A stretch of 20,189 nt of DNA from a virus, in IMG/VR virus record IMGVR_UViG_3300025890_000209, positions 1-20,189 of that record; one strand, given 5' to 3'. The notes below the pieces were generated by a model. It did no database searches. It was given only the letters and a program-made list of their open reading frames with translations, and had not been told where the DNA came from. The translations under genes and the position numbers were made by a program. How positions within the stretch are numbered: the stretch's first letter is position 1; every line of letters starts with the position of its first letter. Shown here one piece after another: positions 1,756 through 20,189 of the stretch.

Positions 1756-4521
1756 TTAGTCTCTGATGAGTTCGTCAAATTCTGAGAAGGCTCGTTCGTC
1801 AAAGTCGTATCTGTATTTTTCTGAGAACTCTTTGTCGAGGTCTTTTTTCTTGGTGAGTAGATCTCGTACGAGCTGTCGAATATCGGATCGTCTAGTTTGT
1901 CCAAGGATCTGCTTATAATTTTTCCCATAGTCTGTTTTATCTCTAGTTATTAAGTTACCGTTTTTATAATATATGATATGAGCTGCATCATCAACATTCA
2001 ATTCGACTAGGTTTTCGAGTCTTTTTTGAAACTCTATATTATCTAAGTCACCTACGTTGATTACAACCACACCTTTTTCTTTAGCAATGACCGCATGACC
2101 ATCACCAAATTCTTTGTCTAAAGCAGTACCGAATTTCTTCATTTGATCTGCTGTAAATTTTTTATCAGTTCTAACTGCAACTGAGTTTGCGTTTTTTTGT
2201 GATCCAGCTTTTATAAATCTGTGATAACCAATTGCGTCTTGCTGTAAGACAACGCCTCTAACAGCTGAATATAATTCTAATAATTCCTCACTTGGTGCAT
2301 CCATCTGAGTAACATCTTTACCAGCACCTTTTACTCTAGTTGTTGCAATTTTAGTTTGTCCAGATGGATTTGATACACCTTGATAATAACCTGGAGCCTC
2401 AAAATGACCTGGAGAAAGTAGGTTTAATTTTTTAGCAATAATATCTGAACCATCTTCATCGTTCATTATTTGTGAAACTTTAAATTGGTATTCTGACTTT
2501 ATATTAGGTGTAGCGCTAGATAATTGATTTAAATGTTTAGAATAAGTTCCTGGTACAGTTTCCCAGGACACAAATGCCAAATTATCTTCTAAAGCATCAG
2601 CAAAATCAAATGCAGCTTTGCCAGTATCTTTTGAAGTTAACTCGTAATCCATTGCAGTATTAAATCTTAAATCAGCAAATTCTTTTTCTTTACCTTTTAT
2701 TGGAATGATAGATCCACCACTTCTAACACCTACATTTTGTTCTAATGCAGCGTCAGCAAAAATCTTTTTTGTACTATCAAATCTTCCTTTTGTTGCAACC
2801 CAGATTGCAGCTTGAGCTTGATCAATATCCCAATTCTTTTGTTTAGCAACTTCGTTTGTAATATCTTCTAAGTAAGAATATTTTACACCATCACTCAATT
2901 CTTGACTTACAAAACCACCAGCTCTGTTCATCCATAAATCAATCGTTGCACCTTGTTTTAATTCTGGATTAATTTCTTTCATTATATTGTTATAGAAATT
3001 ATTTGTCTTTCTTCCGTTCCAAGGAATATTTTCGTTTAACAATAAATGTGATTTTAAATCTTTTGTTTTTTCTGCAATGTTATCATATTCGCCATGACGA
3101 ACTACCATAACATTTCCGCTGTCATCAAGTTCTACAACTTCTAATCCTGTAGATTTTTGTCCTTTAACTCTTTTAGCTCCGCCATACTTACCAATTAAAT
3201 CTCTTTTAAATTTAGCTTTCTGAGTAATATTTAAATCTTGTGGAATAGTTGCTCTCTCTAATATTTCTCCATCCCAAATTTTTTCTCCAGATTGAAACTT
3301 ATTCCAAGCCTTAATTGCAAACTGAGTGTTTGTAGCAACTGGTTTTTGTGGTGAGTAGATTGCTAATAGTTGAGCAAATTGATCAGCTGCTTGTTTATCA
3401 CCTCTGACATAATTTAAAATATTTTGTCCACTTTTATTATACCAGTCTTTACCGAGCTTACCTTCATCAGCTAATCTATTAAAATTACTTAAAGTTTTTT
3501 TTTCAAAACCTTCAGCTGATAGCTTTTTTAAAGAAGGAAGGACCTCACCAGCCTTCGTTCCTAACATTTTTTTTACAACTGTCGGACCTAATCCAGCAGT
3601 CTTTTCAAAACCATATTCATTAACTGTGTCAGGAATACTACTTTGATCATCATCAATGTTAAATTCTAACGGTGGTATTTCATCACTATCAGTAACATTC
3701 TCTGTATTAGATATTGTATTATCAAGAATTGCACCTGAGCTTGCTCCACCACCTACAGCAATTGCTCCTTGTTGTGCTTTGTCAGCTTTCATTTTTCTAG
3801 CTGCAATAATTCCTTTTAATAGTTTTTCTCCAACATCGGTGTAGAGTAAATACTCTCCAAACTGTGCGAACTTATCTACTACCTCACCCATTGGTGTATC
3901 ATCTGGTAAATTAAAAGTTTCTTTTACTGCTCTAAAATATTTACTATCTGTAAAGAAAGTCTCTGATTTATCAAAAGCTAAAGCTTCACTCATTGCACTA
4001 GAAATAATTAAAGATGGTGCTTTAGGTAATCCAGAATTATTTAATTTTTTATATATTGGATAAGTATACATTTGGCTTTGACCAAGCATACCTACAAGCT
4101 TTGATACAAATGGACTTTCTTCATCTGCAAAATTAGATAATGATTGTTTAGCTTTATTTAAATTTTCATACATGCTTTGATAAGCTCTCTCATCCATTTC
4201 ATCTGGATTTGGATCTAAAGCATAAGCAATGTTATTTAGAAAATGACCAAAATTTACTCCACCTTTACCAATAGAGATAAGCGTATCTTTAGGAACTTCT
4301 TTTAAAAAGAAATTGGCTACATCCTTCATAAATAGCCTTTGTTCAGTTTCATCAACTGGTTCAAACTTAACAACACCTGAGTTTTCGTCAGGCTGTTTAC
4401 CTTCAATTATATCTGTATCAATATCATTTTCTATAGCTGCCTTATAAGCTGAAGATTTTTTGATAAGCTGATCTCTTTGAGCTGGAAAGGATATATCTTC
4501 TACTAAATCTATTGACTTCAT
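1756..4521 (-). CDS. Large internal virion protein (921 aa)
   Basis: A 921-residue protein whose ATG overlaps the stop of the preceding 542-aa gene (ATGA), so it is probably translationally coupled. Residues 1-300 are helical and acidic, with a Gly/Ala-rich linker near 253-266. Residues about 345-580 hold a segment whose elements (IYSPQKPVATN, TNNFYNN, TIDLWMNRA, QAAIWV) resemble a domain I know from large phage polyvalent and internal proteins; its activity is unknown to me. The C-terminal 60 residues are strongly charged. Position after gp14-like and gp15-like genes points to an internal core protein that is ejected into the host. No peptidoglycan-hydrolase or polymerase motif was recognised. 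CDS certain; specific function unknown. Confidence 0.85.
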   Translation of the reverse strand: MKSIDLVEDISFPAQRDQLIKKSSAYKAAIENDIDTDIIEGKQPDENSGVVKFEPVDETEQRLFMKDVANFFLKEVPKDTLISIGKGGVNFGHFLNNIAYALDPNPDEMDERAYQSMYENLNKAKQSLSNFADEESPFVSKLVGMLGQSQMYTYPIYKKLNNSGLPKAPSLIISSAMSEALAFDKSETFFTDSKYFRAVKETFNLPDDTPMGEVVDKFAQFGEYLLYTDVGEKLLKGIIAARKMKADKAQQGAIAVGGGASSGAILDNTISNTENVTDSDEIPPLEFNIDDDQSSIPDTVNEYGFEKTAGLGPTVVKKMLGTKAGEVLPSLKKLSAEGFEKKTLSNFNRLADEGKLGKDWYNKSGQNILNYVRGDKQAADQFAQLLAIYSPQKPVATNTQFAIKAWNKFQSGEKIWDGEILERATIPQDLNITQKAKFKRDLIGKYGGAKRVKGQKSTGLEVVELDDSGNVMVVRHGEYDNIAEKTKDLKSHLLLNENIPWNGRKTNNFYNNIMKEINPELKQGATIDLWMNRAGGFVSQELSDGVKYSYLEDITNEVAKQKNWDIDQAQAAIWVATKGRFDSTKKIFADAALEQNVGVRSGGSIIPIKGKEKEFADLRFNTAMDYELTSKDTGKAAFDFADALEDNLAFVSWETVPGTYSKHLNQLSSATPNIKSEYQFKVSQIMNDEDGSDIIAKKLNLLSPGHFEAPGYYQGVSNPSGQTKIATTRVKGAGKDVTQMDAPSEELLELYSAVRGVVLQQDAIGYHRFIKAGSQKNANSVAVRTDKKFTADQMKKFGTALDKEFGDGHAVIAKEKGVVVINVGDLDNIEFQKRLENLVELNVDDAAHIIYYKNGNLITRDKTDYGKNYKQILGQTRRSDIRQLVRDLLTKKKDLDKEFSEKYRYDFDERAFSEFDELIRD

Positions 4522-10243: not shown

Positions 10244-10909
10244 TTACGCTTCATGCGCTTGTATGGTTAAAACTTTGTCATCTTCAAGTCTTGTGGCACC
10301 CATGGTCATACATAGGTAAACTTGAGTAGCATAGCCTTTGTCTGATCTTTCATCTATTCTCGTCATAACATCCTTGCCTAAAGCAAGTTTGATAGCGTCA
10401 TTAGTGAAAAGCAAACATTCTCTTTTGCTATTAGCTTTAACCAGTCTGTTTGAGACTATAAAGTTAAATCCCATAAACGAATTGATCTCGCCATTAGCCA
10501 AAGCTTTAACTGTGTTAAAGTCTGAGCTAGTAACTTCAGTTGTTCCTAACAAGTCTGTTACTTGTTTTGGTCCAATTACAATCGTTCTAGGCAAACTTGG
10601 ATCTACTGATGCACTATCAAGAATTTCTTTAGCACTTCTTAATTTTGCAATAGTTAATCCAGCAGTACCGCTTTCTGTTATCTTTTGCGAAGATGGAAGA
10701 GCAATGGTTGTTGAACCAGTTTCTCCGCCAAATGCGTTTCCAGCAACAGCTGCGATTATCTCGTCATCCATCGATCTTCCCATGGCATAAGCGGCAGCTA
10801 GTGCATAGTTAGATGTAGGATCTATCAATGTTCTCACACGATCTTGGTTGTCTATTAGATCAGCCCATTCGTAGTCAGCCATTGATACTCTTCTTCTGCT
10901 ATGTGGTGT
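10244..10909 (-). CDS. Major capsid protein, exon 2 (221 aa plus stop)
   Basis: This is the 3' exon of the split major capsid gene; the full coding sequence is complement(join(10244..10909,11138..11335)), 287 aa. Exon 2 begins with codons for TPHSRRRVS, followed by MADYEWADLIDNQDRVRTLIDP, a highly typical stretch of T7-like marine capsid proteins. Later come YAMGRSMDDEIIAA, LRTIVIGPKQVTDLL-like strand/helix elements and GFNFIVSNRL. A start at the internal ATG 10880-10882 would give 212 aa, would drop the conserved TPHSRR residues, and has no ribosome site because the upstream bases belong to the exon and intron. The phase is intact: exon 1 ends on a full codon and exon 2 starts on one. The protein is expected to have the HK97 fold and build the icosahedral shell. 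Confidence 0.93.
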   Translation of the reverse strand, partial: TPHSRRRVSMADYEWADLIDNQDRVRTLIDPTSNYALAAAYAMGRSMDDEIIAAVAGNAFGGETGSTTIALPSSQKITESGTAGLTIAKLRSAKEILDSASVDPSLPRTIVIGPKQVTDLLGTTEVTSSDFNTVKALANGEINSFMGFNFIVSNRLVKANSKRECLLFTNDAIKLALGKDVMTRIDERSDKGYATQVYLCMTMGATRLEDDKVLTIQAHEA

Positions 10910-11137
10910 CAGTTTTGTTATCGTAGTTTTTTTAATTACTACTTCTACATATCACTATGCAGCTCGGACTATATCATCACTTAATAAGTGTTCGGCACTC
11001 TTGGAGATATTATTGTTTCCTCAATCTCTAGTCTCTGAACCTTCTATATACCTTTTAAATTATATAGCTTGGCTGCTGATTGTCTTAAAAAAGATTTTCC
11101 AGCAATTCACCGAATTTTTAATCGACATAATAATTTT
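10910..11137 (-). ncRNA. Group I self-splicing intron, ORF-less, 228 nt
   Basis: Intron nt 1 is 11137 and nt 228 (the terminal G) is 10910. P1: exon bases AATCGAT (11138-11144) pair with GTCGATT (11120-11126), ending in the U.G pair that marks the 5' splice site. P3: TTCGGTG (11108-11114) with TGCCGAA (10991-10997). P4: GCTG (11100-11103) with CAGC (11075-11078). P5: TCTT/AAGA with a TTTT loop. P6: CTATATA (11061-11067) with TATATAG (11044-11050). P7: GACTA (11029-11033) within GTTCAGAGACTAGA, with TAGTC (10967-10971). A GAGAT...ATCTC helix lies between P7 and P3', like P7.1/7.2 of subgroup IA. P8: CACTT/AAGTG with a 3-nt loop. P9 helices GCATA/TATGT and GTAGT/ACTAC follow. The core boxes P, Q, R and S are all recognisable. 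No endonuclease ORF is present. Splicing restores a conserved capsid motif. Confidence 0.95.
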
Positions 11138-11335
11138 ATCGATTTGAGGTGTGTCTGAATGACGTGAAACTCTTTTCTGTGCAGAAACAGCTCCAATTCT
11201 TTCAAAGTAAGCATGCTTGCCTACCACACTCTCAACATCAACAACACCTCTAAGCAGAGAACCTTTTTGTTGTGAAAGCATTTGTACGTTTGCAGAATAC
11301 TGCTGTACAAAGGCTTCCGTTATAGTATTAGACAT
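11138..11335 (-). CDS. Major capsid protein, exon 1 (66 aa)
   Basis: This is the 5' exon of the major capsid gene. The start ATG (11333-11335) has a strong ribosome site AGGAGGA (11343-11349) with 7 nt spacing. It encodes MSNTITEAFVQQYSANVQML, then QQKGSLLRGVV, VVGKHAYFERIG and RHSDTPQID, the usual N-terminal arm and start of the shell domain in T7-like marine capsid proteins. The exon ends after Asp66, at the U of its GAT codon. If unspliced, reading continues 25 codons into the intron and stops at TAA 11060-11062, giving a useless 91-residue product. Capsid protein must be made in hundreds of copies per virion, so splicing must be efficient for the phage to be viable. Confidence 0.93.
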
Positions 11336-11424
11336 TTTTATGTCCTCCTATTATTGGTTATTATTGATTGATCGATTTGATTTTCCAATTTCTCGGATCT
11401 CGTCTTTAGATTTATAGTCTCCAA
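11336..11424 (-). promoter_or_regulatory. Capsid mRNA leader with strong SD and a copy of the splice-site sequence
   Basis: This 89-bp gap upstream of the capsid gene holds AGGAGGA at 11343-11349. It also contains TCAAATCGAT (11371-11380 on the minus strand), identical over 10 nt to the exon 1 end at 11138-11147, so the intron guide GTCGATT could pair with it as with the true 5' splice site. The spacer is unusually long for this packed operon. I found no convincing promoter in it. Confidence 0.45.
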
Positions 11425-19132: not shown

Positions 19133-20189
19133 ATGGATCAGAAAAAAATAAATAACCTTACCATTTCAAAATACTCACTTAAAAAAGATAAAGACAATAA
19201 AATCCTCGAAATAGACTGGCAAGAAGGAGCATCAGAAATGATTGATGTTGCAGTAGCTAAATACACTGGATCTCTTTTAGTTGGTGAGATGGCAGTAATT
19301 GGTTTGATGTATAAAAATGGAAACATGTATGAAATTTATGGACCTAAAGAAGAGGCTATGTTTCATGCAATAGAAAAAATTAAAGGTAAAAAAAGAGGTG
19401 CTAAAGAATTACATCAAAAGTTTTTAGATGAATGGAATAAAGCATTACCTTACGTTCCAGGTGGTTTTAAACAAAAAGTTACTGAGCTAGATGAGCATAA
19501 ATTATTAGGTACATCGTTAAAAGCTAAAGGTTACAACGCACCAAAATTTGCAGCTGAAGTAGGAAAAACTAAACAATCTATTTACGGTCAAATATCTGGT
19601 GAGAAAGGTATTTCAAAAGAAACGGCAATTGATTATGGAAAAATTTTAAATGTTGATCCAGTAGATTTATTATTTCCAAAAAAAACTACTAACATTTGGG
19701 GTACAGTCAATACTTTGAAATGGACCGAGACAGATGAAAATTATAAACCTTGTCAAATTTTTGCATCTGGAGAAGAAAATGTAATTATTCCTAGAGACAT
19801 TGCATCACCAAACATTAGAGCAATTAAAGTTAGTGCAAAAGGTTCAATGTATCATAATCAGGTGCTGTTTTATTACAAAGACAATGCAGCAGATTTAGAA
19901 ATTAATAATAAACTTTGTGTTGTTGGAATTAAAACAAAAGGTTTTATGGATGAAGAATTAAATCATTTTTATTTTGGTTTTTATGAAAATTACAGAGGTG
20001 AAAATAATTTATTAAATCCTGATCCTTATGCAAAACCTGATGAAAAAATAATTTTAAAAAATTTTGATTTAGATTTTATTTCTCCAATTGTTGCAACTAT
20101 AGATCCTAAAGCAGTTAAAGATAATACTGAGGCTCAAAGAATTGTACCTGAAGAAATAAGTATTTCTCAACAAAAACATGATCAACAAA
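19133..20189 (+). CDS. CI/LexA-like repressor: HTH plus S24-like domain, C-terminus cut by window edge
   Basis: Open frame from ATG 19133 to the right edge (352 codons, no stop). Residues 1-120 are an unrecognised N-terminal extension. Residues about 124-183 form an XRE-type helix-turn-helix (LLGTSLKAKGYNAPKFAAEVG, then KTKQSIYGQISGEKG, then AIDYGKILNVDPVDLLFP). Residues about 213-325 resemble the S24/LexA C-terminal fold: IRAIKVSAKGSMYHN with Ser238 where the catalytic serine stands, and a final strand ISPIVATIDP. The catalytic lysine expected near 265-285 is not obvious, so self-cleavage may be absent. The stop immediately before the ATG (TAA at 19124-19126) excludes a longer start; AGAAGGA touches the ATG and is too close to act as its ribosome site. 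It is the only plus-strand gene, divergent from the early operon, as expected for a lysogeny repressor. Confidence 0.8.
   Translation, partial: MDQKKINNLTISKYSLKKDKDNKILEIDWQEGASEMIDVAVAKYTGSLLVGEMAVIGLMYKNGNMYEIYGPKEEAMFHAIEKIKGKKRGAKELHQKFLDEWNKALPYVPGGFKQKVTELDEHKLLGTSLKAKGYNAPKFAAEVGKTKQSIYGQISGEKGISKETAIDYGKILNVDPVDLLFPKKTTNIWGTVNTLKWTETDENYKPCQIFASGEENVIIPRDIASPNIRAIKVSAKGSMYHNQVLFYYKDNAADLEINNKLCVVGIKTKGFMDEELNHFYFGFYENYRGENNLLNPDPYAKPDEKIILKNFDLDFISPIVATIDPKAVKDNTEAQRIVPEEISISQQKHDQQ

Follow-up and report, generated by a model that had tools for sequence, protein, structure and literature searches.

What interrupts the major capsid gene of this phage, and how did the interruption come to be there? 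In the 20,189-nt stretch of viral DNA analyzed here (IMG/VR record IMGVR_UViG_3300025890_000209, positions 1 to 20,189; hereafter the window), the minus strand carries a terminase-to-tail block whose capsid region consists of two ORFs, 11335-11060 and 10882-10244. Once 228 nt (10910-11137, minus strand) are removed, 11335..11138 and 10909..10244 are fused in frame to yield 287 amino acids followed by a stop codon, confirming to the base the junction proposed in a preliminary description of this locus; in-frame stops are met if the 228-nt stretch is read through. The identification of the split gene as the major capsid gene also stands, since the spliced protein matches PF19821 (Phage_capsid_2, E 1.2e-90) in Pfam and family 3437 (major head protein, E 2.6e-93) in PHROG. 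A second copy of the capsid gene was found neither in the window nor in a 28.5-kb contig 99.8% identical to it. Elsewhere on the minus strand of the window, the tail genes are followed downstream by reading frames for very large late proteins (1-1644 and 1756-4521), and the sole large plus-strand gene is a long ORF at 19133-20188 that is open at the window end and has no Pfam match.

Table 1. Features of the split capsid locus and of the RNA predicted to interrupt it (window coordinates).
Feature	Position	Strand	Details or basis
Exon 1, major capsid gene, codons 1-66 (MSNT...PQID)	11138..11335	-	198 nt; gap-free against intact capsids
Group I intron, 228 nt, no notable ORF	10910..11137	-	RF00028 match; exact insertion relative to HTVC028P
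Exon 2, major capsid gene, codons 67-287 and stop	10244..10909	-	666 nt; gap-free against intact capsids
In-frame stop within intron; unspliced RNA would give a 91-aa truncated product	11060..11062	-	sequence
Likely ribosome binding site AGGAGG upstream of capsid start	11344..11349	-	sequence
P1 5' exon strand AAUCGAU, ending in the U of U.G	11138..11144	-	covaries with guide sequence
Internal guide sequence GUCGAUU (P1 intron strand)	11120..11126	-	pairing, covariation
P3 5' strand UUCGGUG	11108..11114	-	two pairs with changes on both sides
P3 3' strand UGCCGAA	10991..10997	-	covariation alignment
P4 5' strand UGCUGG; partner 11074-11079	11099..11104	-	Rfam match, covariation alignment
P7 5' strand with one bulged base (G-A-GACUA)	11029..11035	-	G-C beside bulge covaries to A-U
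P7 3' strand UAGUCC	10966..10971	-	covariation alignment
P7.1, extra hairpin between P7 and P3	11004..11028	-	strong covariation; one pair occurs as GC, AU, UA and CG
P9 hairpin	10945..10962	-	covariation alignment
P9.1, second hairpin after P9	10923..10942	-	covariation alignment
Terminal G of intron	10910..10910	-	kept in all full-length introns compared

SAR11 are the ocean's commonest bacteria, and the window phage is related to SAR11 phages. The earlier label of a T7-like phage must be dropped: capsid family and neighboring gene order match HTVC010P-type pelagiphages (proposed Ubiqueviridae, PMC10504331), which are described as relying on host RNA polymerase (PMC10504331). The order connector, assembly protein, capsid, tail tubular A/B is common to the window and Pelagibacter phage HTVC028P, which also supplies the closest isolate capsid, 92.7% identical over all 287 residues and ungapped at the junction. 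At this point the DNA of HTVC028P lacks precisely 228 nt (120 nt, against 348 in the window). Isolates of this type such as HTVC028P resemble the window in gene order and capsid family, and in all close isolates found the capsid gene is uninterrupted. Among the 80 nearest IMG/VR capsid loci, 6 contain an intron, and the complete ones among the others align straight through the junction. In keeping with the proposal of an intron, no homologue was found that translates the 228 nt, and the intact capsids run gap-free across the junction.

The Rfam group I model (Intron_gpI, RF00028) matches 10945-11195 on the minus strand over its full length with 83.9 bits (E 2.2e-20; the Rfam cut-off is 50 bits), and no other Rfam match turned up anywhere in the window with E as high as 1; the covariance-model search suggested in the preliminary description thus returned a significant hit. 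We aligned 13 introns of the window's capsid family, each with 12 nt of 5' exon, and compared them with a structure comprising P1, P3-P9, P7.1 and P9.1 that was drawn manually from the window. Under this structure 97.0% of cells are paired, and 26 of 61 pairs have changed on both sides, where shuffles expect 9.8 and none of 500 reached as high. Sliding the pair partners gave at most 3 doubly changed pairs, and RNAalifold, with no structure supplied, recovered most of the same helices with 24 doubly changed pairs. The folding energy is unremarkable against shuffles (z -1.56) and not decisive alone; the evidence for an intron comes from covariation, from the covariance score and from the empty sites.

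The covariation extends to the splice site. In P1, AAUCGAU pairs with GUCGAUU and places a U.G at the splice site; the U.G is constant in 13 of 13 introns, 5 of 7 pairs have changed on both sides, and the helix tracks the exon (AAUCGAU/GUCGAUU in the window, AAUGGAU/GUUCAUU in relative L025). Compensatory swaps in P3 (CG to GC, GC to UA) and, beside the bulge, in P7 (GC to AU) back the P3/P7 pseudoknot with its bulged P7. The final intron base is G10910, so that U.G, terminal G and core helices P3-P9, all named in the preliminary description, are borne out by the sequence and by the 13-intron covariation. P10, in which the 3' exon would pair with the guide region, looks weak on visual inspection. 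P7.1 is present and covaries, P7.2 was not seen, and this P7.1 would fit subgroup IA; the T4 td intron is of subgroup IA2.

The sequence, its structure, its conservation and the exact empty sites are observed features of the locus and give strong evidence that the window RNA is a functional group I intron, from which we infer catalysis and splicing in the cell. In the folded transcript, the final seven bases of exon 1 would pair with the guide sequence. Following the established group I reaction, guanosine would attack after U11138, the freed end of exon 1 would attack after G10910, and the exons would join at codons GAT-ACA to give a 287-codon capsid message. Since the unspliced message would be terminated after 91 amino acids and the only capsid gene present would then yield no full-length protein, virions are predicted to depend on splicing.

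Two other accounts of the split gene must be weighed here. The insertion might be a chimera of metagenomic reads, and a related locus (L101) does look chimeric between two introns; however, the same intron is found in L092 and in the separately assembled contig that matches 18 kb of the window at 99.8% identity, and the same junction is seen in about a dozen other contigs, leaving this account a negligible chance. Alternatively, the intron might be degenerate and unspliced, with the two ORFs giving separate co-assembling proteins or a pseudogene, as could be argued from the fact that both halves are ORFs and that an ATG lies inside exon 2, at 10882. Yet a product begun at that ATG would be without 75 conserved residues, exon sequence is conserved at the junction, the same arrangement recurs in independent contigs, and compensatory change maintains the structure including the exon-containing P1; we consider this reading very improbable. 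The explanation we favor with high confidence is a compact, spliced group I intron from an endonuclease-less lineage that has apparently spread horizontally and to new sites within this gene family.

Several sites are occupied within one gene family. Related introns lie after residues 45 (L096, L455), 61 (L098), 66 (the window and many others), 78 (L465), 96 (L098) and 270 (L287) of the window's capsid family, all between codons, and two genes carry two introns each, L096 (45 and 66) and L098 (61 and 96). The preliminary description was right about the capsid intron itself but had missed the multiple insertion sites across the same gene family. Guide sequences match the local exon at each site, and the target AAUCGAU is common to sites 66 and 96; the window intron contains no endonuclease ORF in its 228 nt. 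In a second, more diverse group (L132, L203, L267, L284, L363), introns lie at approximate positions around residues 47-52, 152 and 200-203, those of L132, L267 and L284 included, and some genes give three Rfam matches. L132, L267 and L284 are window-family capsid genes with two or three introns, and their intron of ~200 nt close to residue 200 resembles, on visual inspection, a different group I subclass. We rejected L101 (1-760) as a further arrangement: it is probably a chimera of the 5' part of a site-96 intron and the 3' part of a GC-rich site-200 intron, joined through a conserved P4-P6 stretch, and serves as a caution for assemblies of intron-rich genes.

Phage group I introns are usually discussed together with endonuclease-driven homing and DNA-metabolism genes, and the preliminary description had said that they are usually known from such genes. 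In 115 records of the window's phage group (1.62 Mb) all above-threshold introns lie in the capsid gene, which makes up 6% of the sequence, the records having been picked by capsid similarity. A terminase-based control of 50 records, meant to avoid selecting capsid contigs, gave only the near-copy of the window, so that introns are uncommon overall. Weak RF00028 matches in the portal genes of two relatives (16 bits) lie inside an open portal ORF and were dismissed as chance. When the P7-P7.1 motif was sought without regard to host gene, 26 loci emerged. The window's capsid family accounted for 18 of them and PHROG 1328 capsids for 5 (one by flanks only); 1 was in a PHROG 267-like capsid and 2 were in another gene. 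The nearest relatives outside the window's phage group are thus mostly in unrelated capsid families; because the motif is capsid-derived and several loci are near-copies, the scan shows where close relatives live and gives no general rate. Proteins flanking less similar introns matched major head protein families in 14 of 40 representatives, followed by ribonucleotide reductase and DNA polymerase with 2 of 40 each. On a tree of 71 labeled introns, those in capsid genes tend to cluster apart from those in other hosts (8 changes, against 16.1 in shuffles), a figure to which near-copies contribute. Capsid genes are the commonest identified hosts of such introns in our survey, and the mycobacteriophage LittleE offers a demonstrated precedent (PMC3706429).

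Several further capsid loci came to light in these searches. In three IMG/VR contigs (L182, L136, L168), several group I introns split HK97-type major capsid regions into pieces that are separated by endonuclease-like ORFs, L182 having at least 5 intron matches within about 5 kb. Related introns occur in the PHROG 1328 capsids of L195, L207, L152, L240, L205, L253, L456, L457, L459 and L462, and in L195 and L240 at least two intron matches lie close to the capsid gene. A PHROG 29 major capsid gene with a group I intron after it recurs in L115 and some 33 near-copies.

Introns in the window's family are more alike than the genes that carry them. The window shares 93.4% of intron but 69.1% of exon positions with L023, and 85.8% against 60.7% with L104; for L025 and the site-66 intron of L096 the values are 91.3% and 67.1%. 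Structural RNA constraint may account for part of this difference. The site-66 intron of L096 and the site-61 intron of L098 are 91.6% identical, in capsids that are 92% identical; only five codons lie between these sites, which fall in the repeat DTPQxDTPH. In an intron tree built without the guide region, four introns from four different sites form one clade (99/95). A single clade of site-66 introns is rejected (p-AU 5e-27) and one of site-45 introns weakly so (p 0.03), in tests that grouped introns by insertion site after the tree had been seen. Intron and site phylogenies appear to disagree, in trees of 16 short sequences whose inner branches are mostly weakly supported. The guide of L465's site-78 intron matches site 45 better (7 bp) than its own exon (5 bp), and in the tree this intron joins one from site 45 (87/78); this one case is suggestive of a guide kept from the site of origin.

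By what route might such introns travel? RNA reverse splicing, an endonuclease supplied from elsewhere and plain recombination between repeats are the candidate routes. In collaborative homing, an endonuclease of the phage or of a co-infecting phage would cut intronless capsid genes and repair would copy the intron. The sporadic distribution and the excess of intron over exon similarity fit such DNA homing, and free-standing endonucleases adjoin intron-bearing phage genes in the ICP1 terminase and cyanophage psbA cases (PMC10448857). However, no endonuclease domain was found among the ORFs tested from the window and its 28.5-kb near-copy, in which part of the genome is missing, and because homing copies an intron to the same site, it is insufficient alone to account for sites 45, 61, 66, 78, 96 and 270. 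We regard DNA homing as a credible route, though short of probable.

Somewhat more doubtful is spread at the RNA level, in which a free intron would reverse-splice into guide-matched sites of capsid mRNA, with reverse transcription and recombination fixing the copy. The L465 guide, the target common to sites 66 and 96, and the confinement of all introns found in the phage group to the capsid gene favor it, whereas the process needs a reverse transcriptase, none of which was seen, the retained guide is a single case, and recombination could also move an intron between sites 61 and 66, whose flanks are repeats. A bolder and rather unlikely version is that a compact lineage without endonucleases specializes in phage capsid genes, moving between sites and phages at the RNA level; it is just as conjectural that abundant late capsid mRNA would be the target, a partial guide match picking the site and the guide then evolving. 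Whichever way the intron lineage moves, its guide appears to be re-fitted to each new site within the capsid gene family.

The locus is an unusually clear case of the question of how introns without their own endonuclease reach new sites, which thereby becomes testable. Simple gene callers split such capsid genes, and surveys that use the capsid as a marker will therefore miss or truncate those phages; the affected group is regarded as very abundant in the ocean, the split gene occurring in some members only. Introns go unmentioned in two papers on HTVC010P-type phages (PMC6811365, PMC10504331), and open-licence literature yielded neither introns in these phages nor the spread of one lineage among capsid-gene sites, which is weak evidence of absence.

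A capsid intron in itself is already known. In LittleE (Cluster J), the spliced product was demonstrated by RT-PCR and protein sequence (PMC3706429); that intron, like the window's, is group I-like, lies in a phage major capsid gene, follows a U and ends in G (PMC3706429). It differs in its 819 bp, its endonuclease ORF, its HK97-type capsid, its Gram-positive phage and its one site (PMC3706429), as against 228 nt, no ORF, a PF19821 capsid and several sites across relatives in the window's case, where splicing is predicted from sequence. The unrelated lactococcal phage Tuc2009 also has an intron-interrupted capsid gene, as cited in PMC3706429. The T4 introns in td, nrdB and nrdD are likewise phage group I introns, but they interrupt nucleotide-metabolism genes and encode endonucleases, in contrast to the ORF-less intron in a structural gene described here. 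Several introns in one structural gene are also found in Vibrio phage ICP1, whose tape measure gene has three, with splicing shown; there the gene is another one, endonuclease genes are present, and the available portion of the paper describes no spread of one lineage among sites (PMC10448857). As far as we found, what is new is the occurrence of related, endonuclease-less introns at six sites of one capsid family.
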